Shown: positions 2,960-55,149 of the stretch, one piece after another
How the letters are laid out: each line of letters opens with the position of its first letter
How positions within the stretch are numbered: position 1 is the first letter of the stretch
From: Rhytidiadelphus loreus
Taxonomy: Eukaryota; Streptophyta; Bryopsida; Hypnales; Hylocomiaceae
Length of the DNA stretch: 64,000 nt
Assembly (NCBI GenBank): GCA_947034895.1
Contig: OX344762.1
Coordinates: forward strand, 80,408,981 to 80,472,980
Direction of reading: 5' to 3'
Program-made: the position numbers and the translations under genes
The notes under the pieces: model-generated
What the model was told of the DNA's origin: nothing
Database searches by the model: none
The model's input: only the letters and a program-made list of their open reading frames with translations

Positions 2960-4740
2960 AGATTCAATCTCAAAGATCAACGGCTTAAGAAATTTGGAGA
3001 AATCAACGGTATTCTGGAGGGGGAAGCATTTATAAAAAAATCAACTGCCTATTCATTTTTGGGAGAAGGGGGGCAACTAATGGCAAACCAGATGTGTGAC
3101 TGCCTCTTTTGGGTGCATAGTGAACATACGTTGATTTCATTGTTGCCGTGGATATCCGTTTGAACATGACATATCAACCTTGATGGCCTTGCAACATCTC
3201 GACATAACAATATATATCATATGTACATCATCTCTTGCATCATAGAAAACATGAGAGATGTGTAAGAAAATGCATTTACCTCAATAATGACATTGTACAT
3301 AACATTGATTTTAATAGGTATTTAAGTGTTGCTACTCTTAACGATTGAAATGACGTTCCTTAGGTGTTAGAATGGGCATCATTTGGAAGAGACACCTCTT
3401 GCAATGAGCATGTTCACTCTAGTTCTCCAATACTCACCTCAATGGAGTTATGGATACTACATTGAACAAATGATGTCTTCCTTAACGTTGTTTCCATCAT
3501 CACTAAGAATATTATGCATGATCTAATGGACATCAATGGCATCAAAATAAACATAAGAACATGCCCTATAATATGAATGTACGTCAATTGTAGCATAAGG
3601 GACAATATTTATCTCCTAAAGTGGTGTAAAATTATACGTTTCACTAGAAAATACATGTTCTAGTAGACATCATCTACATTGGTTTAAGTTAACTCATATG
3701 TATGCACGCAATTTACGGAAGAATGTTGTCTTAATTATAACTATAAAGTACATACATATAATTACACAATACATACACAAAAAGTCATTGGTCCAATCAA
3801 ACATCAAAGTGTTCATTTTCTTGGCATTTTCCATTGTCCTTTTTCTATGCATAACTCTTAGAGATAAATTTTTCTAGGTTTGAAATTAGAGAAACATACT
3901 ATTTTCAATGCTTTATAAATTATCCATATTTTACAAAATATATTCTAAAATTCACAATACTCAATGAAATAGGCATTTTGAACCAAAAATGGAAGGTGTT
4001 TTTTGCAATAGCCCAAAATAGTTTAAATTCTATTTCACAATAGAAAAAAATATAGTGTCACTCTAAATTTGCATATGACTTGAAAACAAAATGTATAATT
4101 GTGATTGAGAATTTTTTATATAATTGATACCCTCTTAGTGAAAAAAACGCTTGCATGTTGTCATGAATGTCACCATAGAAATTAAAAAATGTCATTGTCA
4201 TGTGGACCATCTATCTTCAACTATGTTAGTTCTAAGTGAGTGTGTTGTTAGACTTGTTGGGTGGTTGGTAGAAGGTTGGGGTTGTATGGCTCATAGGTGG
4301 GGTCAAATTGGGCTTTAGTTCCATAAGGTTTACAATTGCAAATCCTTTCTTTGGGTACATAAGATTGTAGCTTACTTAATTTGGGATCAACTTTTCATTA
4401 ACTATGAAACCCTTTTTTGTGAGATCTTTGGTCTCTTTTAGTATTGTGGTTGCTTTTAGTGAGGGTTTCTTTCACTTTTTGTCTTGTGAGGATTAGACTT
4501 ATTTTTTTGAGCTTGAGAGGTTGGAATAGCAAAAACTTGAGAGGAATTTAAGTGATATTGGATCTTGATAGTACTAAGGGTTGGGATCTAAGTTTTAGAA
4601 TTGTAGGTATAGTGAATATACTAAAGCAATATCAAAATTCTCTTTATTTATAAAACAAGTGTCTATTGGAAAATCAGTTTCATTTTGTTATTGTAGATGA
4701 ATTGGGTACTCGGATTAAGGTGGGTTTTTTTTGTCATTGT
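2960..4740. other. AT-rich stretch, nothing recognised
   Basis: Very AT-rich with short chance frames only. No repeat structure or coding signature that I can support. Confidence 0.5.
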
Positions 4741-4746
4741 TGTTCC

Positions 4747-5101
4747 CTAAATGAGATTCAGCTTTTCTATAAGTCCACGAGTTCCCCCAAGTTCTTGAAT
4801 TGTGGAAACTTGTCCACAATAATAGTTTAATGTGGCTAAGCAATTGCCATTTCAGATAATTTTAAAAATTTTAAATTTTAAAAATTTTAAAACTTTAAAT
4901 TTAAAAAATTTTAAAATTTTAAATTTTAAAATTTTAAAATTTTAAAAATTTAAAATTTTAAAAATTTTAAAAATTTAAAAATTTAAAAATTTAAAAATTT
5001 AAAAAATTTAAAACTTAAAAAAAAAATTAATTTTAAAATTTTTAATAATTTTTAAATTTGGCCAATAGCATGGAGAGTTTGCCTAAAAAGGCCCTCTAAT
5101 G
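4747..5101 (+). mobile_element. Degenerate CATTAG-family TIR element (copy 1)
   Basis: The left end reads CTAAATGAGATTC and the right end closes with CCTCTAATG. Between them are the family landmarks GAGTTCCC, a GGC..GCAATTGCCA segment and a final GGCCCTC block, as in the better copies at 34.4, 42.5, 44.0 and 57.3 kb. The centre has expanded into about 200 bases of almost pure A/T made of AATTTTAAAA-like units (about 4858-5060). It is non-coding and non-autonomous, and it is the most decayed copy in the window. Confidence 0.5.
4858..5062. repeat. AT-only low-complexity tract
   Basis: About 200 bases composed almost entirely of runs of A and T in an irregular AATTTTAAAA pattern, lying inside the CATTAG-type element. 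It is probably replication slippage in the AT-rich core that the other copies also have at shorter length. Confidence 0.75.
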
Positions 5102-5104
5102 CAA

Positions 5105-6980
5105 TTGAAAATCATCTAATTTTTATGTTTTTTTTACAAACATTTACTACAACCAAGAGCCATATGTGTCTTAGATGTCTACATGGACAATTGAGAGAAC
5201 ATCTTCTAGTTTTAGATGACATTTGTTGGGACACAAATGACCATTCAATAAATATACAAAAACGCGGGTCAACTTTGAAAATCTTTATTCTTTACATTGA
5301 CATGTCATTTGTAATAATGCACTGAGTTCTATGTGACAGCCAATGTAGGATTTGGAATTTCATGTTTAGGAACTTTCAGATATGCATGAGGTGTTGTAGC
5401 TACAATTTCTTCTTTCTTGACTCCAATCTTATAGAGGTGTTTCTCTATAGGGAGAGCAACCTTCATTTTATAACATATTCTAAGGCATTATAAATTTATA
5501 TTTGACATAAAATATGATGATTACTTGAAGCAATCATAATAATTTGTACAACACAACGAATGCAATTCGTATTCAAAATTATATAGAACATAAGCCCGAA
5601 CATAGGTTTAGGTAATTCTATAGACTTGTTGAAAAATCATAAAAAATGACCATAAACATTGTACACTCAACATGCTCCAAGTTTCTTTTTTGTACCTCTT
5701 AGACACTACTTTGTCAAATCCAAATAAATATGGTTGTTTCTCTATTTCAAGACTACTTTGTCACAATGTCTATATACACATTCTAATAGACATCACAATA
5801 TTTTCTTAGACATTGTTCAAGACGCCAACTTACTCACCACAATGATCCTCACACTTTGTCAAGCCTAGTTCAATGCAAAAATATTCCTATTTGTTAATTT
5901 GTATATGCATCAATGCAAAAATTCACAACACCCCTTGATTATACAAACTTGTTGAAATAATAGAGTAAATTCTATACACACTATGTTGCATACACTTAAT
6001 GGATTGTATACAATTAAATTTAGACCCTTATAAGTCTCATTCATTCACAAAGAGGTCCATGTCCATTGAACAATTGTTCTAGACAATTTTCTTAATTCAC
6101 TTAACACCTAAATTGCTAATTACCAACTAAATTCTTCTGTAACAAGTCTAAATAAGTCTAAACAAAATTGTACAAAATCATTCTATAGTACAATCCTATA
6201 GAACTATTGTGCACACAACTTACAATTCTCCAAAGAAATTGTACACACAATACACTATAATGAGCTAATTTTCATACCTTCTACACTCACTTGTAACAAG
6301 TACTAACAAAATTGTACACAAAAAGGTACAAATAAAAAATGTAAACAAAATTGTACACAAGATAGCATGTAATTCTACAACACTACTAAATTGAAGACCA
6401 TGGACTTGGATTACATTGCCACATTTGAATGGCCCCTCTTTCTCTCTACTTTAATGTCGTATGGTTTTTGGATGTCTACACAAACGTCATCAGTGGGGCA
6501 TCTCTTTGTTTTCCAAGACACATTGATGGGCATCACCAAACTCATTGTAGTAATTCATATAGTAAAAGATGTTAATTCATTGGATTAAAAATTCTACTAG
6601 GTAATGTGTACATGCATCAACACACAATGGTGCAAATGATCCACTGATCCCCACTTTGTGAAGAGGTCAAATCTTGGCATTAGTAGCCTTTGCAGATTTC
6701 ACTTTCTCCTCTAACATTAGTACCTTGAAAGTTTGCTCACTATTGGAGCGCTTAGGTTGTGGTGCTTTGATTTTTGAAACCCTTAAATTGTCTTGCATAA
6801 AAAAATTATACACGGTATATAGAGCAATAGAAGTGCAAGACTCTCCACCTACTACTTCCTAATGATTACAAAACTATACATTTAGTAAACAAGACCTTGC
6901 ATCACACTCAACTAATAAGGTGTACTTGTTGAGAATTGACTATATTGGTAGCCATGTTGTCTATTGTTGCCATAATCCCT
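5105..6980. other. AT-rich stretch, nothing recognised
   Basis: Many short direct motifs such as TTGTACAC and ACAAAATTGTAC recur at 6000-6370, giving a locally repetitive texture. There is no ordered tandem array and no coding signature. Confidence 0.45.
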
Positions 6981-27040: not shown

Positions 27041-27862
27041 GCGAATATTTGAACAAATCGAACGGCATCCCAAGTTGCAGATTATATTTCGTCCGGGCAG
27101 ACCCTTATCGGGCAGATATTCCTGGGGTGTCGAATTTCCGTCCAAGCCGGCGCCTTGGGAGACGAGCCCCACATTTCCGTGCAGCATCCTGAAGGAAGAA
27201 TCCTTCCAATCGTCCAGTCTTCGCCCTCGGCCAACTGGAATACCAGCCAACTGAACGAAGAATTCGAACAAAGAATCCGCTTCCGTCATTCAATCGTCCG
27301 TCCAAGGACGAGCGACAACTGCTCGGAACCATAACGATAAGAACCTTCCCGTTTGCCGCCCGTCGCCGAGGTGGACGTACGACAGTACCCGACAGTGAAC
27401 TCTTCCGTCAAAACGATCGTTCGTACGTCGATTTCATGAACGATCGTCCGTCCTCCCGAAGGTTCGCCACAGGATCAGGGTCAGGACACTGGCAAGAACC
27501 AGCACTTCCGCAGGGGCTGCTTTTCGGGACACCCAGACTTGCACATGCGGCGGACGGTGGTCGCAATTTCACCAGTTTTCGCCAATTTTTCCAAATCCAA
27601 ACCCAAGCCTGTCATCCCTCGCCATCGGAAAGATCGTAGGCAACCAGGAGTTGCCCAACCAATTCAAAACACACACACACACAACCCATACTCCTAATCT
27701 CGCAGTTCCCACGATTTGTGCACACAACTTTCTTTTCACCACTTGCATCCCAGCCTCTTGCATCTCGTTCAATCGCTCAATCTCCCTTTGCGATCTATTC
27801 CCAGTTCTTTTTCCGATAAAATTGATGCATTAGGGCCCCCCGATCGCGTGTTTTCAGTCAGT
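27041..27862 (+). promoter_or_regulatory. GC- and CpG-rich 5' flank and probable leader of the EDR2_C gene
   Basis: The base composition changes sharply to CG-rich, with many CGTCCG-like motifs (27090-27480), immediately upstream of the only intact host gene. A (CA)n tract lies at 27667-27681, and C/T-rich sequence at 27720-27830 is typical of a plant leader. No clear TATA box can be assigned. The reading frame of the gene is open upstream to 27716, but that part translates into low-complexity His/Leu/Ser sequence and is more likely untranslated. Confidence 0.5.
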
Positions 27863-28861
27863 ATGAGAGAGTGTGGGGGTACTTTTCACCAGAAGATGCA
27901 CGCAGTGGTGCCTGTGCGCGAGGACGACGACGACGACGACGGGACGTGGATGGCGACGACAAAGAAAGTGCGGCAGGATTGGGAGGAGGAGGTGCGGATC
28001 GGGGGTTCCTTGCAGAATGTCGACTTAGAGACCGATGGCGTGCAGCACGGCTGGGCTTCTCCTCCTGCACCATTGTTTATGGTTCGCGGCTTGAATTACC
28101 TCCAGAAGAGGCAGAAGATGCCATGCTCGGAGAGTTTGCTTCGTCCTTTGGGGGTCGACTGGTTGCGTTCCAACGGCCGGTTAGATCACATCCTTTCCCA
28201 CCCGGAGAATCGCGTGATGCAAGCGTTGAGTAAAGCCTCCGTGGAGTCTCGCAAAAACTCGTTTATTCTCGCCGTGAATTTGCAAATCCCAGGTAAGGAG
28301 CCTCACAGCGCGGTGTTCTACTTCGTGACGGACGACCCCATCATAGAAGGCTCCCTGCTCTACCGTTTCGTCCACGAAGACGACGCCTTCCGGAACAGCC
28401 GCTTCAAGCTCATCAACCGGATCGTGAAAGGGCCGTGGATCGTGCGCACGGCCGCGGGCAACCACGCGGCGTGTCTGTTGGGGAAGGCGCTCACGTGCCG
28501 GTACATCAAAGGGCGGAACTACTTGGAAGTCGACGTGGACATGGGCTCTTCCACGGTCGCTAATGCGATTCTGCACTTAGCGCTCGGGTATGTCACGACG
28601 GTGTCTGTGGACATGGCGTTTCTGATTGAGAGCCAGTCCGACGAAGAGCTTCCGGAGAAGCTGCTGGGCGCAGTGCGAATGGCGCAGATTGAGATGGAGT
28701 CGGCGGCGTATTTTCCGTTGCATCCTCCTTCCGAGAATGAACCCGCTACCACAACGACTGCTAGGGAGTCGGGGCAGTACTGGCGGAAGTTTGGGAAGAG
28801 CTTGTCGAAGCTCGGGAGCCATGGCAGCAGGAACGGGAGAACAATTGATGAGGAGCAGTAA
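27863..28861 (+). CDS. EDR2_C (DUF1336) domain protein, single-domain form
   Basis: The intact intronless frame encodes 332 residues from the ATG at 27863. The frame is open further upstream to 27716, but that extension is not protein-like. Residues 21-26 are an Asp run. From about residue 64 to 280 the sequence follows the EDR2 C-terminal domain: WASPPAPLFMVRGLNYL, then the NLQIPG segment, FRNSRFKLI, GPWIVRTAAGNHAACLLGKA, NYLEVDVDMGSS and ELPEKLLG. In Arabidopsis EDR2 this domain follows PH and START domains; here both are absent, as in the shorter plant DUF1336 proteins. The molecular activity is not firmly known; EDR2 itself negatively regulates cell death in disease resistance. The Ser/Arg/Lys-rich tail is probably disordered. 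Codon use is much GC-richer than the surroundings, but that fits an expressed gene in its own island rather than transfer. Confidence 0.9.
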   Translation: MRECGGTFHQKMHAVVPVREDDDDDDGTWMATTKKVRQDWEEEVRIGGSLQNVDLETDGVQHGWASPPAPLFMVRGLNYLQKRQKMPCSESLLRPLGVDWLRSNGRLDHILSHPENRVMQALSKASVESRKNSFILAVNLQIPGKEPHSAVFYFVTDDPIIEGSLLYRFVHEDDAFRNSRFKLINRIVKGPWIVRTAAGNHAACLLGKALTCRYIKGRNYLEVDVDMGSSTVANAILHLALGYVTTVSVDMAFLIESQSDEELPEKLLGAVRMAQIEMESAAYFPLHPPSENEPATTTTARESGQYWRKFGKSLSKLGSHGSRNGRTIDEEQ

Positions 28862-45135: not shown

Positions 45136-45486
45136 TACACTATTCAGTATTTTTTTAATAGAAATACTCATAAAAATGAGCGTAAAGTGGAAAAAGAAAT
45201 CCGAGGACCGAGTGACAATTACAGGGCTCACAAACTTCCCTTCTATTGTTAAGCATGTTGACAAACATGACTTTTCCACAGTCAGTATTCACGTATAGTT
45301 GGATAGCTAATCCTAGTAGCTAAGGCATGTCGTTTTCAAGAGAGCCACTTTGTACATGCCGTTGCATGTACGCAAATAAAAAACAAATTGGAATCAGGGT
45401 ACCCACACATGGAGACACATTGGAAAACGAAGTGGGACGGACGTTCCAGTGCTCCCCTTACCAAGGCAAAACTAACATTGCATCGC
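45136..45486. other. Spacer between TTAA-ended elements
   Basis: No gene. Base composition begins to rise in GC towards the piggyBac element. The 67- to 87-codon frames here are not supported. Confidence 0.4.
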
Positions 45487-45996
45487 TTAACCCCTTTTGC
45501 ATTCACCCAGCCAATTTGGCCTACGGTTGAGGTATTCAGGCTATTTAGAGGTGGTTCTAGGGTATTGTTGGAAATACGTGTAACTACAAATTTGGGGGCA
45601 AGATTGTGAACCTAATTAATAAAAAATAAAAAAAATATCTCTATTGAGCCTCAGCCATGGGAGTTGCTCGATCTATGTTCTGGGTGTATTCTCCTGGAGA
45701 CAAGTATGTCCACATTGCAGATTAGGGTTAGGGTGCCCACCTAGGTACGTATTCGTAGAAAACTGGCTCAGCCGGTTCGTGGCAGTTGGAGGTACTTCTG
45801 CTGGCGTCAGAGCGAGGGGGACGTTTTCTCGGATTCTAAACCGAGGACCTTCTTCAAGAGATTAGTGAAGAAGGTGGTGCATTTTTTTATTGCTTGTTCA
45901 AGCAAGGGGATCGGCAATGGATTGCGAGGCGCCCTGCAAGGGATTGGGACTGCCTTGTAGGCGGTAGGATTTTCAAATTCTCTGAAAAGGAGCGCG

Positions 45997-46539
45997 ATGG
46001 AGCTCCGTCAGGCCGCGTTTGAGCATATAGTGGCCACCGTCTTCGGTCTCCAATGCGTCGTAGGCAGACGTGAGGTCAGTTCCTTCGCGATTTGCATTCA
46101 CAGTGAATTGTTCATGGCGGGTGCCACACTTACGGGAGAAGCACTACAAAATTCGGCATCCCTCGAGGTCTTGAGGCGTTGGTTTACAGACGAAGGTGTC
46201 TCTGCGGCAGGCGTGCAACACGTTGTCAACCTTTGCGATCCCAGTTACTTGGAAGCACAACCCAGACCCGCATCATGGAACCGGCGTGGCAAATTTGAGG
46301 TCCACGACCGACACAGGTACTTGTGGTATCGGCACGCAGCCAGGATACTCGGTTGGAGGGATCGTCACCAGTTCCCAGAGTTCATCTCTGCTTTCTTGCG
46401 GGATCACATTTACCCAAGACCGGTTGTCCAATATGAAGAAGCTCGCGAGATCACGACATTGCAGGGAGGAAACACCCTCAGATGTGAATGTCCTCACACA
46501 GGTAACTGCACCTCCTATGTTTCTGGATTTATGCATGAC
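45997..46539 (+). CDS. piggyBac transposase gene, putative exon 1
   Basis: The frame from the ATG at 45997 is protein-like for about 168-181 codons, with balanced composition and Trp/Arg/His-rich segments such as WFTDEGVSAAGVQHVVNLC and HRYLWYRHAARILGWRDRH. Two GT donors are possible: at 46502 (after CCTCACACAG) or at 46540. Only the latter leaves the reading phase needed by exon 2 as I define it. No known domain is recognised; it is an N-terminal extension absent from animal piggyBac transposases. It is linked to the downstream exons by strand, spacing, shared composition and splice-site fit, not by homology, so it could be a separate gene. Confidence 0.55.
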
Positions 46540-46842
46540 GTAGTAATAGTGGGTTAGGTTGACGGTCCAAAGTTTCCCTGCCAGCATCCTCCCAATTCAG
46601 GGTTTAGACATTCAGCATGCCAATACAAGGTTAGAGTTCCTAGAGTGAGGTCAAGTGCTTGCAGTCTCATTTGTTTAGAATTCGCTGTATTAGGCTTCAG
46701 CTGAAGGTTAGGATTTGTGGCACTGGATTTAGGGTTGCATTTACGTGCACGTCTGAAGTTCAGAGTCTATAAGCAACGAGAACTTCGCACATACTTTATG
46801 GACTGCAAATCTAATCCTCAGTCACTATTTCATTGCTCTTAG
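46540..46842 (+). other. Putative intron 1 of the transposase gene
   Basis: The sequence between exons 1 and 2 is AT-richer, contains stops in all plus-strand frames, and ends in CATTGCTCTTAG, a good pyrimidine-rich acceptor. The donor choice (46502 or 46540) is unresolved. Confidence 0.5.
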
Positions 46843-47164
46843 GTGGGTCAAGCAGTGGAGGGCCCGTGCACACAACGCGTACCACTTGCCGAAGTGGAGG
46901 TCGACAATGTCATTGTGCCGCCAACAAAGAAGCGGATTCATCGACCTCGAGCCAAGAAGGGCCCCCCCACTTTGGAGCATGCCGACCTGACCAACGAGGT
47001 AGCAATCGTAATATCAGCGAAAAAAAAGCGGAAGCCTCGGCAGAAGAAGCAGACGACACCATTGCAATCCCCGGTTCCCGAACTGCTGATTACTTCCATG
47101 CCGTTGAACCCCTCGCCAAACGACATCGGCCCTCCACCACCTGACTCAGCTACTCCCTTACCAG
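46843..47164 (+). CDS. piggyBac transposase gene, putative exon 2 (basic, nuclear-localisation-like)
   Basis: The acceptor TTGCTCTTAG precedes 46843, and the donor CCAG/GTATAT follows 47164. The 107 codons include PPTKKRIHRPRAKKGPP and SAKKKRKPRQKKQ, strongly basic clusters typical of nuclear localisation or DNA-backbone contact, followed by a Pro-rich stretch. The exon ends one base into a codon. The acceptor of exon 3 (GAATGCGCAG before 47380) requires exactly that phase, giving Ala at the junction. This agreement is good evidence that the two exons are joined. Confidence 0.65.
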
Positions 47165-47379
47165 GTATATTCCGGCAAATGCGTTGAAGAACTCTGCTCC
47201 TCTATACTTACTTCACTTCGTTCGTAGAGTTAGTTGAATTCACATGTTGCCAACTAAAGTGTTACATGTAATTGGCATGTGCCCTGTCAATGCTTTCATT
47301 TTAGAACTCCTATTCACCACGGTCTTTCGTTGTCCATTGAAACTAATCACAGCGTCAACTCATGTTCATGAATGCGCAG
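47165..47379 (+). other. Putative intron 2 of the transposase gene
   Basis: It starts GTATAT and ends GCGCAG, 215 bases, with matching phase on both sides. The frame happens to be open from 47244 through the acceptor, which is why a naive reading starts translation inside the intron. Confidence 0.6.
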
Positions 47380-49019
47380 CTCGAGGGAGGAACGGCAGGT
47401 GGACAAGAAGCCAGAAGGGCAAAGGACTACAGACGAAAGCCATCAAGCCGAAGAAGTGGAAGGCTCCGGAAATCGTCCCGAACCAAACGCAGTGTGTCTT
47501 GACTCGTGCGAAGGCGGTGGAGATTCTGGAGTACCAACGGCAGAGAGAAAACGATCAATTCATTCAAGAAGTCCTTGGTCACTTTCCAGCAGAAGATGAG
47601 GACCTCATTTCCGTGCCACCAGAGTCGTTGCATGCAGTGGGGAGTATGGACACTCGCAATATCAACCTCTGGGATGTCATCTTCAGGGACGAGGCGTGGA
47701 GGGCTGTCGACAACATTGACAGGGCTCACGGGTTTGGAAGTACCCATCCTGGTGGCACGGAAGCAGCTGGCAAATGTATAGCTACTACTCTTGCAGAAAT
47801 TCCACTACATCTGCAGGGAATATATGCTGATTGGAGTGCCCGACGAGCAGGGTGGGCTGTACTAGTCCCCAACAGATTCTTGTCTGAGGCGTCCTTCCAC
47901 ACAGGGTACACACCTACGTGGACACAAGGGCATGTTGTTGGCGAAGGTAGGGACCTCGGCAATGGTAAGAAGATGGTCGTTTGCCAACTAGGCGGTTTCC
48001 CTACCGAGGTGCACATGGAGGACTGTGACGTTCGCATCGCAAAGTCGGCCCATTCTGGCGCTGAGGGAAGTGAGGGTGGCCATGGTTATGGCTGGAACAA
48101 GCAGAGAAATTGTTTTCTGACAGCACCAACGGCAGCAGCAAATACCGAAATCGTCAATGACCAATACGTTGTGGGCGACGAAGGATCAGGAGGCGGTCTC
48201 GGGGCGGCCGACGAGGCAGTACAGGAAGGACTTGGGGGAAGCAGAGGAGCCGAGCTAACAGAGCAAGTCCAAGAGAACCATCCCGACTGCAGAATTGCAC
48301 CGCAGCCTCGGGGGGTGCTAATTGATGGTTATGACTTGCCGAGTGATGTGGAGGCCGTCGAAGGAACGCAGGACTCCACTGCGCGTTCAACCTTTCCGAA
48401 GGTAAGTTTCGCCCTCCCTGAGTACCTGCATGTGGGCGATCGGGGGAACCTATCAAGTGCCGACGATGGAGCCGACGATCTTGTCTCACGTAGTTCTCAT
48501 GCAGACTCAAGCGACCGTGATTGGATACCTGACTTTGAAGACGTCGTAGAAAGTGCCGAGTCAGATTTTGATTTAGATAGCTTGGACGTCGAAGCTGAGT
48601 ACGACGAAGGCATTTCGTCAGGGTGCATGAACCCTCATTCATTTGCCCCTGTCGACATGACAATGGATGAGCTAGCACAGTACTACCGGAAATCCTCATG
48701 GAATTCTAGTACTGTCGACTTCGTGAGATCTCGGGACAATTTCAGTGGTCCTAGTCCAGGTTTGAAGCTTCTACCGGTAGGAGGAATGCCAGAGGTTGAT
48801 AGAGTGTTCAATCGATATTGGCCCCCGGAGATTCTAGACCGAATTGTATTAGAAACTAACCGTTATGCTCGGGCGGAGCTACCTCGTAAGTCAAACGAGC
48901 TCCCCAGAACAAAAGGTGGTCCAACTTGGTTAGATGTCGACCGTGTAGAATTGCAGGGGTGGTTTGGAGTGTGCATCCTAATGGGATGTAAACGACTTTC
49001 CAGTATCAGACACTACTAG
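47380..49019 (+). CDS. piggyBac transposase, exon 3 first part (acidic linker and N-terminal transposase region), ends in TAG
   Basis: About 546 codons. It starts basic (RGRNGRWTRSQKGKG), continues into an uncharacterised segment, then a long acidic stretch (SSRDRDWIPDFEDVVES-like, Asp/Glu/Ser-rich), as commonly precedes piggyBac transposase domains. From about 48790 the family region starts: MPEVDRVFNRYWPPEILDRI, then LQGWFGVCILMGCKRLSSIRHY. The frame then meets TAG at 49017-49019 and continues in the same frame as the catalytic segment. In the DDE_Tnp_1_7 family the Tyr here is normally followed by Trp, so the stop most simply derives from a TGG codon by one G-to-A change. Confidence 0.8.
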
Positions 49020-50225
49020 ATGAAGACAGAAAACCTAATGTTTTGCGATGTTATTGCTAAGGTGATGACATTTGCTAGATTTCAGCAAATCACGAACTGC
49101 CTCCACCTCGTGGACAACAGAACTGTTGTCCAAGATGTGAACAATCCTCTATTTGATAGAATAGCCAAAACTAGATGGCTTCTCGATTGGTTTAGCAAGG
49201 TGTCTCAGGACATCTACAACTTGGAGAGGGAAATTACGGTAGATGAGTGTGTAGTGCCTTACAAAGGGAGATACTGCTTTATCAGGCAATTTATGCCTGA
49301 TAAGCCCGTCAGGTTTGGAATCAAGGTTTGGGTACTAGCAAGTTCTAAAAGCAGATTTGTATGGAAGATAGAGGTCTACTTTGGAGAGGGGACTGGCACT
49401 GGACCCCATGGACTAGGATATCACGTGGTAGAAAGAATGATGGCAGGCTTAGAGCATAGGGGTCACCACTTGGTTGTAGATAATCTTTTTGCAAGTGTGA
49501 ATTTATTTCACAAGTTGATGGTTGAGGGAACGTGGGCCACTGGTACAGTGCGGCGTAGCAGCAAAAACCTGCCTTCCGGTTTGTATCGGGATCTTCATAG
49601 TGAGGTGAGAGGTTCTATGCTCATTAGAACTCATGTTCATCGCCAAATTGGGGTAGTTTCTTGGCAAGACAAGAAATTAGTAACCCTTCTTAGTACAGCC
49701 TTGCCACCGTGGACTCCTGGGGTCACTGTCTTACGCCGAATAGCTGGTATGCAAGGGCAATTGATAATTCCCTCCTCACCGATGCATGTCGCTTACGTAG
49801 AGTACATGCGAGGTGTGGATGTCACAGACCACCTTCGAGGAAACTACTCTTCGCAGCTACGGGGTCACAAATGGTGGATGAAGCTCTTTCATTTCGTACT
49901 TGACCAAAGCATGGTCAATGGGTATGTGTCTTGGGTGAAAGAGATGGAGGATCTCGGTTTACGGGTGATGCCTCATTTGAAGTTCAACATAGCGGTAGGC
50001 AAGAGACTTGTGCAGGGGGCTATCAGTGCAAGACAGAAGAAATCACGTGTAGCACACCGTGCTCCCAAAAGACCACCCCGAACTCATGCGCACTTTCGGT
50101 CTAAGTTGAAAAGAACGTGCATTGTTTGTGGACGCGTGCAGAAATGGTACTGTGAGGCATGCGGATATAAGTGGATGTGCAAGGAGGCTTGCTACTTCGC
50201 TTATCATGAGGCCTTGAACCACTGA
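49020..50225 (+). CDS. piggyBac transposase catalytic domain (DDE_Tnp_1_7) and C-terminal Cys-rich domain
   Basis: 401 residues in frame with the preceding segment. The three catalytic Asp residues of the superfamily are visible: Asp75 in EITVDECVVPYKGR, Asp154 in HHLVVDNLFAS, and Asp267 in EYMRGVDVTDHLRGNY. Nearby family features are FDRIAKTRWLLDWF, KPVRFGIKVWVL and the GHKWWMKLFHFVLD segment. The last 40 residues form a Cys-rich module (Cys367, Cys370, Cys378, Cys381, Cys387, Cys391, His396), matching the C-terminal zinc-binding domain that recognises the transposon ends. The enzyme would cut and paste DNA at TTAA in the nucleus. No other lesion is seen, so the TAG at 49017 is the only obvious inactivating change. 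Confidence 0.93.
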   Translation: MKTENLMFCDVIAKVMTFARFQQITNCLHLVDNRTVVQDVNNPLFDRIAKTRWLLDWFSKVSQDIYNLEREITVDECVVPYKGRYCFIRQFMPDKPVRFGIKVWVLASSKSRFVWKIEVYFGEGTGTGPHGLGYHVVERMMAGLEHRGHHLVVDNLFASVNLFHKLMVEGTWATGTVRRSSKNLPSGLYRDLHSEVRGSMLIRTHVHRQIGVVSWQDKKLVTLLSTALPPWTPGVTVLRRIAGMQGQLIIPSSPMHVAYVEYMRGVDVTDHLRGNYSSQLRGHKWWMKLFHFVLDQSMVNGYVSWVKEMEDLGLRVMPHLKFNIAVGKRLVQGAISARQKKSRVAHRAPKRPPRTHAHFRSKLKRTCIVCGRVQKWYCEACGYKWMCKEACYFAYHEALNH

Positions 50226-52379
50226 TTCCGGACGAATCTAACTTAGCGTATGTATGGTCATGCATGTAGCTGCCGAGGACTCTGGAGAAGCGGTTTAGGT
50301 TGGGAAGACATGGAGATGACATCGGTGGACCGCAGAGTTGCAAGCGGCGATATAGCCTTTGACTCCATACTAGTGGATTCAGCGTCCAGCATGTGCCCCG
50401 TAGCCCTTAGTAGTAGCTCCGGTGCTTCTATGGCAACAATTAGGAATCATGCCCTAGTTTTAGTGCACTAACCATTTTAGGAGCGTTACATTTTGGCAGA
50501 GCTTAGAACAATTGGGAGGCGGACACCATTTTGGAAGAAACAGTGAATTGGGAGGTGGACACCGTTTTGGAAAAAACAGTGAATTCCATGCTTTCCATAA
50601 ATATATAAATCTGTAAATGCACATGAGTAACTTGCCGTCCTTACATGGCTCCGTTGTAATGTTTTGTAGGACACCCTGACAGGCATCCTGTCTAGTTCGC
50701 CCAAGGAACGTGAGTTGTCCTTGTGTCTTCAGCTGTGTCGTCCGTTCATGTTCCTAAAGAGAATGTCTGTCTTGCAAACTTGTCTTTGAATTCCTATGCG
50801 GGTCATGAGTCACGAATGTCGTTAAACTAAGCAAGCTTTCTGTATAAGGTAACATCATTGAGATGGTGCATGCAGCTCTTGAAACATGTACTTTCCATAG
50901 CAGGGCTCCTGATTTCAATTACGTAGGACATCCTGTTGTCGAGCTTTATTTTCCCTGTCGTTTACTTGTCCATTTGGATATACTTTTGTGCTAACTAAAC
51001 CATGCATGGTCTGCCGAGAGAGAGAGTTGATATTGATTTTTTCCCCGGTGATTTTTGCAGGTGTATTTTATTGCGGACCAATACCACTAGCAAACGAAGT
51101 GGAAGGCGAATAAAGAAATAGAGATTTCTTTTAGAGCAACACAGGTATACTATGGAAGAATCAGGACTTACAACAGGAAAATTGTATTGTGTTCTGGTTG
51201 ATAATTTGTGTTATTAGTGGGATATAGCCTTCTTTCTAATGAGTATCTAGGAGTAGAGAGCGTTCTTCATAAACCAATTTGGAGTGGATCTACTAACCTC
51301 GAGAGTTTAGTTTTCATCTACCTGGCAGTACACTCGTTGTAGAATAGTGCACGGTGTTTCTGTCTTCAACGAAAATTCGGTCTTGATAGAGAATTTGTTA
51401 ATTTACGTACAGACTCAGCCTCCCAATGAAATCCAGTTTACCATGGTCTAGTGAAGACTGAACAGGAAGTTGCTCGCAAAGTGAAACTGGCTCAGATCTG
51501 TATGAGTAAAGAGTATCTGATGTTCGTGAATGAATGTTTGTAGATCGAGAAGTAGTACCGCAGGTTTTTGTGAATTACCGAACTCACTGTTGTTACCTTG
51601 ATGGGTGCAGGTCGTTCCAGTTGATTTCTTCCTCGCGCTCGTTTGCTAGAATACGAATCGAGAAGATCAGAAGGTAAATTCGGAAATTAAAATGCTGTCC
51701 TAAATCCCTGAATGATGAATGTAACTTCTCAGAGTTGTTCCTGTGCTGATGCAGGCATGGCTCCCAAGTAGGAGCAGCAATGTTATGAAGCCTCCCTCGC
51801 CCAATTGACCCCCGTGGCAAGCAGGCCATGTACAAAGAAGTTGAAGCAACAGTAGGTAGTCCCTTGAACTATTCATTCCGCCCTAAACCGAATTGTTCCT
51901 TTTCCATCAGTAGCACTAAAATGAAAACTGAAAAAGAACTGACACATAAGCCATATTCAGCTCATTACCGAATTCCAATTAAACCAAAAGAAGAGGACAA
52001 TGTTTTCACGTTTAGCGAAGTACATATATACAAAGCTAATTGTCCATCCTCCAAACTTGTTTTTGACTTCCAATCTCGTTAACCTCATAGCAGTGGAAGT
52101 AGAAGGTAATAGCTCTTAGTCTTTTATGCAAGGCACGTTCTATACAGACTTATTCTTGGAAAGTAACAGCAAAGACATGGGTTGGCAGTTGGGCAGCCCC
52201 CATGCAGACTTATACTTAGAAGGTACTAACAGCATTGACGTGGGCTCTACAGGACATTCAGCATATGCTGTGGAAGGTCCGAGGCGCTTGAGGTGCTCAC
52301 TGCCGACGGTGGCCTCCATATTTACAATCACATGTTGCCGACTTCAAACAGGTCCGGTTCACCGCCTCCGAGGTGACAA
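50226..52379. other. Interior of the piggyBac element between the two convergent genes
   Basis: Mostly non-coding by my reading; the 72- to 84-codon frames are not supported. It probably holds the trailers of both genes. TGATTTTTGCAGGTGTATT at about 51050 looks like a splice acceptor but I cannot assign an exon. Confidence 0.4.
50506..50586. repeat. Short tandem duplication, unit about 37 bases
   Basis: AATTGGGAGGCGGACACCAT..GGAAGAAACAGTG is followed directly by AATTGGGAGGTGGACACCGT..GGAAAAAACAGTG. The two copies differ at three or four positions. It lies inside the piggyBac element, downstream of the transposase stop codon. Confidence 0.85.
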
Positions 52380-52415
52380 TCAATTGTTGCCGACTTCGGC
52401 CAGGTGCGGTCGAGA
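52140..52415. repeat. Two adjacent tandem duplications downstream of the B3 gene
   Basis: A unit with CAGACTTATTCTTGGAAAG and GACATGGGTTGG is repeated as CAGACTTATACTTAGAAGG with GACGTGGGCT (about 52146 and 52205). Then CATGTTGCCGACTTCAAACAGG is repeated as AATTGTTGCCGACTTCGGCC (about 52331 and 52383). The second copy of the latter overlaps the end of the B3 reading frame, so its C-terminus arose from, or was extended by, the duplication. Confidence 0.6.
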
Positions 52416-52858
52416 TGGAGGAGCGGAGTTCATGCGGGTGACATTGAAGTGGTCCTTCGTGAAGAGAGTAAATTGGAGCCGATCCCCTTCCTTCAGGTTG
52501 TGTGCCGTGCAGAACTGCTTGAAACCGGTTGCAATGGAGACATGCACGTAAGCTGAGTTGATGATGTAGACGTTCAACTTCACCTTCCAGTCGGGGGTGG
52601 CTCCATCATACCGTAACCAGCTTATGCCACTGAATGTATCGGCGTGGGCTTCCACGAAAGAAGATGGAACAGTCTGCACAGGTCAATCAGGAATGTGAGT
52701 ACCAACGCATGTGTCGCAATGGTGGAAAACAAAGTTCTCGGAAGAAGAACTCAAAGTTGGTGAAGGCAGATACGCACCATTGCGACGAAAGAGGTCTTCT
52801 TGAGGACCTTCTCGAAGCTGAAGTTGCTGCCGTTCGTGGAGGCGTTCGTTCTCTGCAT
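52380..52858 (-). CDS. B3 DNA-binding domain protein, two exons, inside the piggyBac element
   Basis: Exon 1 is 52778-52858 (27 codons from the ATG at 52858; an in-frame TGA lies just upstream). Exon 2 is 52380-52673. The junction is in phase, with donor ATG/GTGCGT and acceptor CTGTGCAG. The spliced product is 124 residues, and almost all of it is one plant B3 domain. It opens FSFEKVLKKTSF, continues TVPSSFVEAH, then WKVKLNVYI, the core GFKQFCTAHNLKEGDRLQFT, and closes FNVTRMN. B3 domains bind short DNA motifs in the major groove and are found in plant transcription factors (ARF, LAV, RAV, REM). No second domain is present, so it would act as a bare DNA binder. It is convergent with the transposase gene and lies within the same terminal repeats, suggesting it belongs to the transposon. 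An independent captured host gene is the alternative. Confidence 0.78.
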
Positions 52859-52914
52859 GTTGCTTATCTGCGGAAGTGCTCAAATCGGTCCTGTAATCTG
52901 TGATGGAAGACGCG

Positions 52915-53010
52915 TAGGGAGAGTGCTGTGAGAGAAGGGACAATGCTGTGAGGTAGAGTGCTGTAAGGGAGACTGTAGTGAGAGAGAGTGCCGTCAGGGA
53001 GAGTATGACT
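52915..53010. repeat. Degenerate GAGAGTGCTGTGAG tandem repeat
   Basis: About five imperfect copies of a 15- to 20-base unit (GAGTGCTGTGAGAGAAGGG and variants). It lies just upstream of the B3 gene on its minus strand, where it could form part of the promoter or leader. Confidence 0.7.
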
Positions 53011-53059
53011 CAGGAAGGAGGAGGCTGTCGAGAGAAGGTAGAATGAGCACGGAGATTGC

Positions 53060-53150
53060 TGGTTGTGTTTATGTGAGAAGAATTTGGTGACCTTCTTGAA
53101 GCTGACTTGGCTCGTCGCAGCTGTAATGAATCTGCTAAATCGACACAATC
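53060..53150 (-). pseudogene. Possible duplicate of the B3 first exon
   Basis: On the minus strand, ATSQVSFKKVTKFF resembles the B3 exon-1 segment GSNFSFEKVLKKTSF both in residues and in bases (CAGCTTCAAGAAGGTCACC versus CAGCTTCGAGAAGGTCCTC). It could be an alternative first exon or the remains of a tandem copy. The frame continues without family similarity. Confidence 0.4.
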
Positions 53151-53154
53151 AGCT

Positions 53155-54093
53155 GAAATCTCTTGTGATGTGGTAGGCATGATGGCTAGACCAAATCATC
53201 ATCATCAATGACTTGAACTGATGAAGACTGAGGCGATTTTGTTTGATTGTATGTATGTTTGGAGGAGAGTTGTGGTGATTAGAGCAGAATCGTATGCAAA
53301 TCTGAGGGTTGGGAAACAGTAATAGGAGTTCCTGTGTGCATCCCTTTCGAATTCCAAGCGCTGATCGGGAGACATCACTTTTGGCTTGAACCTAAATCCG
53401 CTGGATTCAACCACGATTACTTGAATCGAATTTCAATCTCACAATCTGATCTCATGGCATTATGAGTTTTGAATGACCCATCGAAGGAGTGAGGTGAGTT
53501 TTGTTGTGTGATCCTGCAATATTTAGTAGTGAGACCCTAAATCCGAACCCAATTCTCGATCTATCGACATGAATTACCCTAAACCGTAGTAGGAGCTTCA
53601 GTTGTGAGAAACTGTAACTGCTTTCCAAGCGGCGAGTTCAGCAAACAACAGACAGTGAGGGTACTTGTCCATTTGGAAGTCCCTCAGTGGTCCACGGTGG
53701 CGGGTAAGCGGGTTGTCCTGTCTGTACTGACGTCAGACCACCGGAGTAGCCCTTCAAATTTTGACTTATACACCGGCAGGTCATTGCACGGGAGTTCCTG
53801 TCAACCTACTATGCAAGCCAGAACGTGGACAGGTTGTAGTCCTTCTGAATAGGCAGTTTGTAATCGGATACAACATCAGTGCTTGAAATACACAATTACC
53901 ATTCAATTTCTTATAAATAGTCCTAAACCTCTATAATTTCAAAAATTTCTGTCGTAGCATCCCCTGAACCTACCCTATGTTCAAGCAAAAATTGGGTTCA
54001 ATGCAGTGAGCTTATCATGCCCTAAATTGAAATGTACATCCCCAGTCTCCTAATACCCTAAACCGTATCCTCCCTGCCAAAGTGCATTAGGGG
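53155..54093. other. Right subterminal region of the piggyBac element
   Basis: No gene. The motif CCCTAAACCG occurs at about 53577 and 54053 and related forms elsewhere in the element. Such repeated subterminal motifs are common transposase or accessory-protein binding sites, but this is inference. Confidence 0.4.
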
Positions 54094-55149
54094 TTAAGAG
54101 GAAGGCTGCACTACGCAGGCAATCGTCAACATTGTTACTTCCTACAAATTAGGTCGGTGGCAACATTTGCCTTACTGAGTGCCTTACAGATGAGTCTTCT
54201 TCTATGAAGGACCCTTTCCCCTCACTGTCTTTTCTGATTGTTGTTGTCGCTGCTCATAGGCATGCCCTTCCATTTCTTGTAAGATTCAATCACTTTCTCT
54301 AAGAACATTGCTTTTTCTTGTAGACAAAACTAGTGCATCATATACAGTGAAAGCAGACGATTGTTAGGATCATTAGTGCAACATGTTATGACTGCCAAAA
54401 TGTTAATGCTAAAGATTACGAAGGATGCAAAATATTGTGAAAACTATGTCGACACAACACCAGTGCAGATACGATACAAATATTGTGTAGTAGTGGTATC
54501 AAGCCATAATAAAACTCGTACGACGTGGTTTACTTCCTCACTAAATCTGAGGGGGTGACCTTTAGTAAATCTTATTGTTAAACCTAAATTCCTAGCACAA
54601 TGATGTCTAAAAAGAAATCGCAACCTATGTGGAGTATCATGTCTTTTCACACCTAACTTCACCTTTTGTCTCAATAATCGTTATTGATCTAGAAGTCCTA
54701 AAAATTGTCTAGTACATATCTTTGTAGCTCTCACTAAGGAAGACCATCACTACAACAACGGTAGTGTTTTATGACTGAGGATGACTGGCGACTACTCGCA
54801 GTCATATTCTTGGAGGTCAATACTTTGGGGAGAAATATGACTGCAAAATATGATTGCCAGTCGTTTTTGGGCCTTGTACTTCACGGGCGTATATTATACA
54901 TCCGTTGGGAACACCAAAGTATTTCATAGGGAACGGTAGGGAACTCGTTTGAGAACATTGAGTTATATTATTAGTCATATTTACATGGTAGTAACATTTT
55001 TTTGTTTTTGGGCAACCTAAGAAAAACATGGACAATAAAAGAAATATAGACAAGATATTGTTTAAAATTTTGAAACCTAATCACCACTTTTTAGGGTTTT
55101 GAAACCCTAGCCGTCATTTTTTTAGGGTTTTGAAATCCTAGCCACTATT

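Follow-up and report, generated by a model that had tools for sequence, protein, structure and literature searches.

A stretch of 64,000 nucleotides of the Rhytidiadelphus loreus genome (the window; contig OX344762.1) raises the question whether a transposon can carry a B3 gene as its own second gene. B3 proteins are a central family of plant transcription factors. If the answer is yes, a selfish element with B3 as its second gene would link the B3 family to transposon biology and point to a testable origin for new B3 genes. The transposon in the window is a piggyBac element, and piggyBac is little noted in plants, as far as excerpts of the literature go. A review of land-plant transposons gives six TIR superfamilies, and its excerpted text does not mention piggyBac (PMC9033089); an excerpt on a fern genome gives 1,230 piggyBac-annotated pieces (PMC6890710). 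A narrow literature search joining piggyBac transposon, moss and B3 domain returned no report.

The element and its transposase

The element extends from TTAA to TTAA at positions 45487-54097 of the window and is 8,611 bp long. Its left end is TTAACCCCTTTTGCA (45487-45501, plus strand) and its right end, read inward on the minus strand, is TTAACCCCTAATGCA (54083-54097; on the plus strand TGCATTAGGGGTTAA, finishing at 54097). The GC fraction is 0.474 within the element and falls to 0.336 and 0.348 in the 10 kb on either side. The end signature of the element copies is TTAACCCCTWWTGCA. TTAA-bounded ends with termini opening CCC were found in the window element and in three further copies, L025, L009 and L010; L011 also has both ends, the right one diverged (TTAACTCC). 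The ends are not due to chance, because L025 has identical left and right ends in other flanks and L009 has both ends too. Thus, the GC-richer, TTAA-bounded unit with matching ends proposed in a preliminary description of this DNA was confirmed.

The piggyBac transposase gene of that description was likewise recovered, by the Pfam profile DDE_Tnp_1_7 (PF13843), together with a feature absent from the description: an in-frame TAG at 49017-49019 that splits the transposase into two open reading frames on the plus strand. The first (47244-49019) ends at this TAG and holds the N-terminal part; its residues before 521 have no Pfam match, and its last 71 residues match the profile at 6.7e-8. The second (49020-50225) encodes the catalytic core and the Cys-rich C terminus and matches at 1.6e-55 (49020-50222), both matches being above the cut-off. 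As its own transposase frame is interrupted, the window copy probably depends on transposase from elsewhere. It was found that the transposase aligns to the solved piggyBat chain 9c0f (1.6e-21) and to the piggyBac chain 6x67 (2.5e-17). In the 9c0f alignment Asp stands opposite Asp at three places (TVDEC/SLDEG, VVDNL/YMDNY and GVDVTD/GVDRAD), which we take to be the catalytic residues. The element shares with piggyBac and piggyBat the PF13843 transposase, the TTAA-bounded CCC ends and the Cys-rich C terminus, but it differs from them in its accessory B3 gene and in the long N-terminal frame without Pfam match. This frame 5' of the catalytic core is kept in relatives, and the structure model of the region was too poor for use (pLDDT 35). 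A three-exon transposase model was dropped, as its reading phases do not join in a hand count. Upstream there is a plus-strand ORF of 186 residues (45997-46557), part of which (46276-46458) recurs elsewhere in the genome, several of the matches lying beside piggyBac transposases. A 36-bp tandem repeat of 2.1 copies (50510-50585) lies 3' of the transposase. A first look at the genome gave 767 candidate piggyBac transposases, and all those scored (116/116) were above the cut-off.

The B3 gene in the window and in other copies

The second gene lies on the minus strand, convergent to the transposase. The gene model, built from the sequence alone, has two exons and predicts a protein of 124 residues with a single B3 domain. 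Exon 1 (52778-52858) opens with the ATG at 52858 and is followed by a phase-0 intron of 104 bp (52674-52777, GTGCGT..GTGCAG) and by exon 2 (52380-52673), which closes with the TGA stop at 52380. The spliced protein scores 32.2 bits with PF02362, just above the curated cut-off of 30.1, which bears out the convergent, spliced single-B3 gene described earlier; exon 2 alone scores 29.8 bits, just below the cut-off. No stop codon interrupts this reading frame in the window. A homologue search using the spliced B3 gave no match, and solved structures searched by sequence gave no B3 match. The structure model of exon 2 alone was poor (pLDDT 56) and matched no solved structure at E < 0.001; the B3 chains that it did match, several in number, were weak matches only. 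A degenerate 15-bp tandem repeat of 4.6 copies (52936-53004) lies 78-146 bp 5' of the B3 ATG.

That the element carries this gene as its own had been suggested from the window only, with other copies proposed as the check. Four further copies with matching ends were found; two of the four have the B3 gene, while it is absent in L025 and was not found in L011. Counting the window element, B3 is thus present in three of five clade members. L025 (on contig C5; positions 4237-6163 of the locus) is an internally deleted copy of 1,927 bp, with the same ends in different flanks, that has lost both genes. L009 (444-9138) measures 8,695 bp with both TTAA ends, and its transposase DNA is 69% identical to that of the window. 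Its B3 gene has the same place, strand and phase-0 intron as the window B3 (introns of 103 and 104 bp) and carries an in-frame TAA. The left end of L010 is at C2:69030034, and 552 bp at and past the transposase 3' end are 79.9% identical to L009. Reading L010 as a truncated copy without B3 was overturned by a convergent B3 match 31.85 kb downstream (76.8% identical to the L009 B3 region over 826 bp) and by a TTAA right end at the spot predicted from L009 (84.9% over 179 bp). The position of the B3 match so far downstream suggests a large insertion within L010. From order, orientation and identity, L010 would be one element of 37.5 kb, as read without C2:69043801-69065899 and 69066701-69067149. 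At the site of the L009 splice acceptor GCGCAG, the L010 B3 reads GCGCAA. L011 retains both ends and the transposase and has no detectable B3, its right half being rearranged; thus B3 can be lost or replaced.

Judged by these comparisons, the B3 gene is part of the element, as diverged copies carry a two-exon B3 near the right end, convergent to the transposase. The contrary idea, that a fixed host B3 gene is merely flanked by transposon ends, is extremely improbable. B3 is a typical plant gene, and for most listed B3 places, of which a minority were inspected, no surrounding transposon was identified. However, homologous B3 genes occupy the same place inside same-ended elements with other flanks, both on C4 and at another site of C2, which refutes a fixed host locus that happens to sit inside the transposon. 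Chance neighbourhood of B3 and transposase is unlikely too. Of 96 B3 places, those of the window and L009 have one of 131 transposase places no more than 10 kb away, with 0.63 expected at random, and both are convergent.

Inheritance and origin of the B3 gene

The transposase DNA tree unites the window element, L011, L009 and L010 in one clade (100/100), the only part of its 15 rows in which B3 was found. For L012-L024 and L026, the right arms yielded no accepted B3 when searched with ORFs of at least 55 residues and a two-sequence profile; several of these loci may stop before the element end. Weak profile matches in L022 (E 0.2) and L015 (E 0.78) were attributed to chance. The B3 tree places the three piggyBac B3 genes together (89/88, below the tool's star), and its pairing of L009 with L010 (96/90) agrees with the transposase tree. 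On the simplest reading the clade ancestor would already have had B3. The carrying along of B3 into several diverged copies suggests that the element uses the B3 protein.

It could be argued instead that a host B3 was captured once by chance and kept by inheritance alone, as cargo useless to the element. The genome's abundant small B3 genes (150 matches scored out of 255 candidates, with 107 matches to the window B3) would make such a capture easy. L011 has persisted without detectable B3, and two of the three B3 copies (L009 and L010) are damaged. In addition, L009 and L010 differ almost as much in the exons (79 and 81% identity) as in the intron (76%) and the flanks (74 and 80%). Against this stand the open frame of the window copy and the codon statistics. 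By the NG86 method dN/dS was 0.42/2.16 for window/L009, where dS is near saturation, and 0.147/0.584 for L009/L010, the window/L010 dS being not computable. The ratio is about 0.2-0.25 for these few (three) sequences. Differences at the three codon positions were 36/34/58 and 18/12/30, respectively, over 105 codons each, an excess at the third position. Moreover, BLASTN of the window element with L009 3' of the transposase matches mainly the B3 region (52434-52824, 61% over 396 bp) and the right end, though nhmmer threads one long weak alignment across this whole stretch. Useless cargo is therefore unlikely, and the codon statistics suggest that the B3 frame may have been under purifying selection during descent.

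Small B3 genes form a large family in the R. loreus genome; the window B3 is one of them, and this family could be its source. Another origin is possible, though doubtful: B3 genes may be common to several groups of DNA transposons (piggyBac, CACTA and one or more additional dispersed repeats) and move between them, the piggyBac gene having come from another transposon and not from a host gene. Two copies that are 86-87% identical, L060 and L061, contain DUF4218 and DUF4216, which we take to mark CACTA, and have the terminus CACTACAAGGGAAACATG; the right terminus of L060 finishes with CATGTTTCCCTTGTAGTG, and that of L061 is one base shorter. Some 1 kb separates their B3 gene from the terminus; the gene is convergent to the transposase, and its intron lies, by eye, at the same place as in the window B3. 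L037 and L038, on two chromosomes, are a dispersed repeat 97.65% identical across 3.58 kb with a B3 exon of 39 bits inside, and nearly the same B3 locus recurs at L048/L062 and L057, on different chromosomes. However, the B3 tree leaves the direction of transfer undecided, and its clade of 11-13 rows also holds B3 genes outside identified elements. No CACTA terminus came to notice near the window B3, short of a dedicated search. Only two of 107 B3 places have one of 148 CACTA places at 10 kb or less, with 0.8 expected; the CACTA list is incomplete and lacks L060 and L061, and two of the 150 listed places, on small contigs, were left out. We suggest, tentatively, that small B3 proteins are a transposon-borne regulatory module common to unrelated superfamilies (piggyBac, CACTA and perhaps the third dispersed repeat). 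In both resolved cases the B3 gene is a second gene close to one terminus and convergent to the transposase. The proteins might regulate by recognizing specific sequences or might counter silencing, and part of the large B3 family of R. loreus would have expanded as transposon cargo. A narrow search on CACTA and B3 domain, at the level of titles and opening lines of abstracts, returned nothing that appears to report B3-carrying transposons.

Possible role of the B3 protein

Taken as one reading, the locus is probably best explained as a two-gene piggyBac element with an inherited, selected, host-derived and regulatory B3. In its least certain steps, the B3 protein would bind subterminal or promoter sequence of the element and could act for it, either as a regulator of both promoters or as a counter to silencing. 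There would be a division of labour, with catalysis from the transposase and regulation from B3.

Known systems show likenesses. The second gene of CACTA (En/Spm) elements is named TnpA. Like CACTA, the window element has a transposase and an accessory gene, and CACTA here has a related B3 in the same convergent place; however, it is another superfamily with an unrelated transposase, and the TTAA target is that of the window element. VANDAL elements belong to the MULE superfamily, which sets them apart, as does the fact that the window B3 is known from its sequence alone. VANDAL elements are nevertheless also plant DNA transposons with an accessory DNA-binding protein, and their anti-silencing protein VANC, as excerpted (PMC5735166), may be a model for a possible B3 role. 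Kolobok elements share the TTAA target and accessory proteins: an excerpt describes duplicated TTAA targets, 5'-RR termini and a variety of accessory proteins in different lineages (PMC9587614). The window element differs by having CC after TTAA (TTAA-CCCC) and a PF13843 transposase. According to the same excerpt, piggyBac families encoding a second, KolX-like protein are already in print (PMC9587614); the window element resembles them in having a second protein, but that protein is a B3 DNA-binding one. Of the new two-gene architecture put forward in the preliminary description, the two genes are thus real, while the novelty is reduced by these excerpted two-protein families and by the occurrence of B3 in CACTA.

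CATGCA, TGTCTC and CACCTG are B3 sites, CATGCA being the RY site of some B3 proteins. None of the three was concentrated in the element ends, and a k-mer count there gave no convincing binding-site array. Among four words tested over whole elements, CATGCA was the one in excess in the window element (16 vs 5.8 expected; 0/100 shuffles as high), a weak and post hoc hint, and in L009 (12 vs 6.2; 5/100). L011, without B3, has 8 vs 6.6 expected (38/100 shuffles as high). The hint is not specific, since the 45-kb left flank is also in excess (37 vs 24.0; 0/30). ACCCTA and CCCTAA were mildly enriched in the element ends (12 and 14 vs 1.8 and 2.7 expected).

Extent and genes of the window element

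The preliminary description of this DNA had placed, between two TTAA sites, an 8.6-kb GC-richer unit with a piggyBac transposase gene and a convergent, spliced gene for a 124-residue single-B3 protein, and each of these parts was borne out. The window element (45487-54097) is 8,611 bp long, starts with TTAACCCCTTTTGCA and ends with TGCATTAGGGGTTAA, and has a GC of 0.474, the two 10-kb flanks having 0.336 and 0.348. In the searched genome (G000; 407 Mb, 489 contigs, the window being G000:C2:80408981-80472980), a DNA search with window 45400-46560 and local BLAST revealed a 1,927-bp copy on C5, L025. It is identical to the window element by 79% at the left end, 73% in a short middle piece and 75% at the right end. 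L025 is likewise bounded by TTAA on both sides, in flanks unrelated to those of the window element, and thus both ends of the latter are independently fixed. L025 contains neither the transposase nor the B3 gene. The ORF at 45997-46557 overlaps a stretch which matched other genomic places in the DNA search.

The transposase matches PF13843 over 49020-50225 (1.6e-55) and can be aligned to the solved piggyBat and piggyBac chains, with Asp-to-Asp correspondence at three places in the piggyBat alignment. Its frame is broken by a TAG at 49017-49019; relatives from public protein collections have a sense codon at the equivalent place, as matched by eye. The ORF preceding 49020 matches PF13843 at its own end only (6.7e-8, residues 521-591). 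The long frame upstream of the transposase core has no Pfam match; its identity to P0028, P0032 and P0039, relatives with lengths of 627-690 aa, is about 50%, so this part is conserved in the lineage. The window element agrees with piggyBac in all features that could be tested but departs from it by having a second gene.

The B3 gene model, read from the sequence, lies on the minus strand and consists of exon 1 (52858-52778), an intron (52777-52674, GTGCGT..GTGCAG) and exon 2 (52673-52380). The predicted 124-aa protein gives a modest match to PF02362 (32.2 bits, cut-off 30.1), but B3 places of this genome that score higher (20 fetched of the 150 listed) align with it over its length. A degenerate 15-bp array is present 78-146 bp upstream of the ATG.

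The B3 gene in related copies

Three lines of comparison bear on whether the B3 gene is part of the element. A second TTAA-bounded copy, L009 on C4, is 8,695 bp long and 69.5% identical to the window element over 1,377 bp of the transposase region. Its B3 gene has the same place, strand and phase-0 intron (103 bp) as in the window element, with 49-52% amino-acid identity per exon and one in-frame TAA. In L010, on C2, the left end and a transposase are present; 552 bp that take in the 3' end of this transposase and the DNA beyond it are 79.9% identical to L009, and past this stretch the homology ends. A genome search with the window B3 protein found a convergent B3 match 31.85 kb downstream, where 826 bp of DNA can be aligned to the B3 region of L009 at 76.8% identity. 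The right end, GGCATTAGGGGTTAA, was found in 401 bases fetched at the spot predicted from L009; a 179-bp alignment with the end of L009 shows 84.9% identity. From the order, orientation and identity of these parts we infer that L010 would be one element (C2:69030034-69067496) of about 37.5 kb, about 22.5 kb of it unread, in which case it holds roughly 28-29 kb of extra DNA. The L010 B3 frame is open and has AA where L009 has the acceptor AG. The L010 right arm also contains a CACTA-like miniature element, small and palindromic (CACTACAAGAAAATGGGGG..CCCCCATTTTCTTGTAGTG; L064 local 6-158, G000:C2:69067155-69067307).

L011 has both ends and a transposase, its right end being diverged (TTAACTCCTACTGCA, homology E 4.5e-6). 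In the suggested check for the B3 gene in other copies with matching ends, it is present in L009 and L010, was not found in L011, where about 6.5 kb of the right half could not be aligned to L009, and is missing with the transposase from L025. Three of the five clade members carry it.

A DNA tree built from 15 transposases unites those of the window element, L011, L009 and L010 in one clade (100/100); none of the tree loci outside this clade, some of them possibly cut short, yielded a B3 gene. In a B3 tree of 21 rows (long-branch L040, L044 and L045 dropped) the piggyBac B3s cluster at 89/88, unstarred, and those of L009 and L010 pair at 96/90; window and L009 B3s had grouped at 92/91 in an earlier 22-row tree predating the L010 B3. 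NG86 gave dN 0.42 and dS 2.16 for window/L009, dN 0.49 with dS not computable for window/L010, and dN 0.147 and dS 0.584 for L009/L010, and in all three pairs the third codon position is the one with the most differences. L009 and L010 are 79 and 81% identical in the exons, 76% in the intron and 74 and 80% in the flanks. As the exons are barely more alike than the intron and flanks, a claim of selection on B3 would lean mainly on the codon statistics of three sequences.

Novelty and possible role of the B3 protein

piggyBac transposases act by cut-and-paste at TTAA sites, and B3 domains bind DNA. The B3 protein could bind the DNA of its own element, and might regulate the element promoters or counter silencing. 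Such self-regulation or anti-silencing is a tentative possibility, aid in end recognition is unlikely, and cargo or other roles take the probability left by these two. The only hints on the role are the retention of the gene, dN/dS, the 15-bp array in front of its ATG and the word CATGCA, which is in excess in the two B3-bearing elements tested and not in L011. This word, counted post hoc as one of four tested, occurs 16 times in the window element (5.8 expected), 12 in L009 (6.2) and 8 in L011 (6.6), and is also in excess in the left flank (37 vs 24.0). No evident site array was seen at the element ends. DNA-binding accessory proteins occur in some plant elements; VANC, for example, is described as binding short motifs of its own element and removing methylation (PMC5735166).

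Accessory proteins are already known in other transposon superfamilies. The pairing of piggyBac with B3 had been proposed as a new two-gene architecture. Two-protein piggyBac families are already in print, with a KolX-like second protein (PMC9587614). For B3 genes within piggyBac or CACTA, no report was noticed in a limited literature search.

B3 genes and transposons across the genome

The content in B3, CACTA and piggyBac suggests a land plant genome, probably that of a bryophyte. B3 places are many (150 scored of 255 PF02362 candidates; 107 genomic matches to the window B3). CACTA is abundant (150 scored of 700 candidates), as is piggyBac (116 scored of 767, all 116 above cut-off). Ten of the scored piggyBac matches are 626-aa open frames, one with a stop, and six share the score 259.8; piggyBac is strongly expanded, and the identical-score copies look like a recently active family.

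Two CACTA copies on different chromosomes, L060 (G000:C1:33475500-33484000) and L061 (G000:C3:38345500-38354000), are 86-87% identical. Each has, some 1 kb away from the terminus, a B3 gene of two exons in convergent orientation, and its intron is placed, by eye, as in the window B3. The L061 terminus is one base short and adjoins part of a piggyBac transposase that belongs to a different subfamily. B3 places lie within 10 kb of piggyBac places in 2 of the 96 entered (part of the window-B3 matches and the PF02362 list; 0.63 expected with 131 piggyBac places, 116 scored and 15 others), and of CACTA places in 2 of 107 (0.8 expected, 148 CACTA places). All four near pairs have the convergent orientation. 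With incomplete lists of transposases, systematic proximity is weak as a statistic.

L037 (G000:C5:45053000-45058000) and L038 (G000:C1:61084000-61089000) share 3.58 kb at 97.65% identity and both contain a B3 exon; they form a dispersed repeat on two chromosomes, which may be a transposon or a duplicated host gene. Upstream of L037, L039 contains an ORF with a weak, sub-cut-off RING-finger match and a 99-bp tandem repeat. L048 (C3) and L057 (C4) are near-identical small B3 genes (97.6% over the 628 bp fetched). Such genes are paired about 4 kb apart on three chromosomes, at C3:49968325/49972323, C4:21860046/21864051 and C2:53770519/53774619 (L048, L062, L057, L055), with 97.6% and 84% identity where fetched and a complete reading of the C3 pair only; host segmental duplication and transposon cargo are both candidate explanations. 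In the window itself, a GC-rich 381-aa ORF at 27716-28861, in a patch of 52-56% GC, is likely a host gene exon; by eye, we take it to resemble EDR2/DUF1336-type plant proteins.
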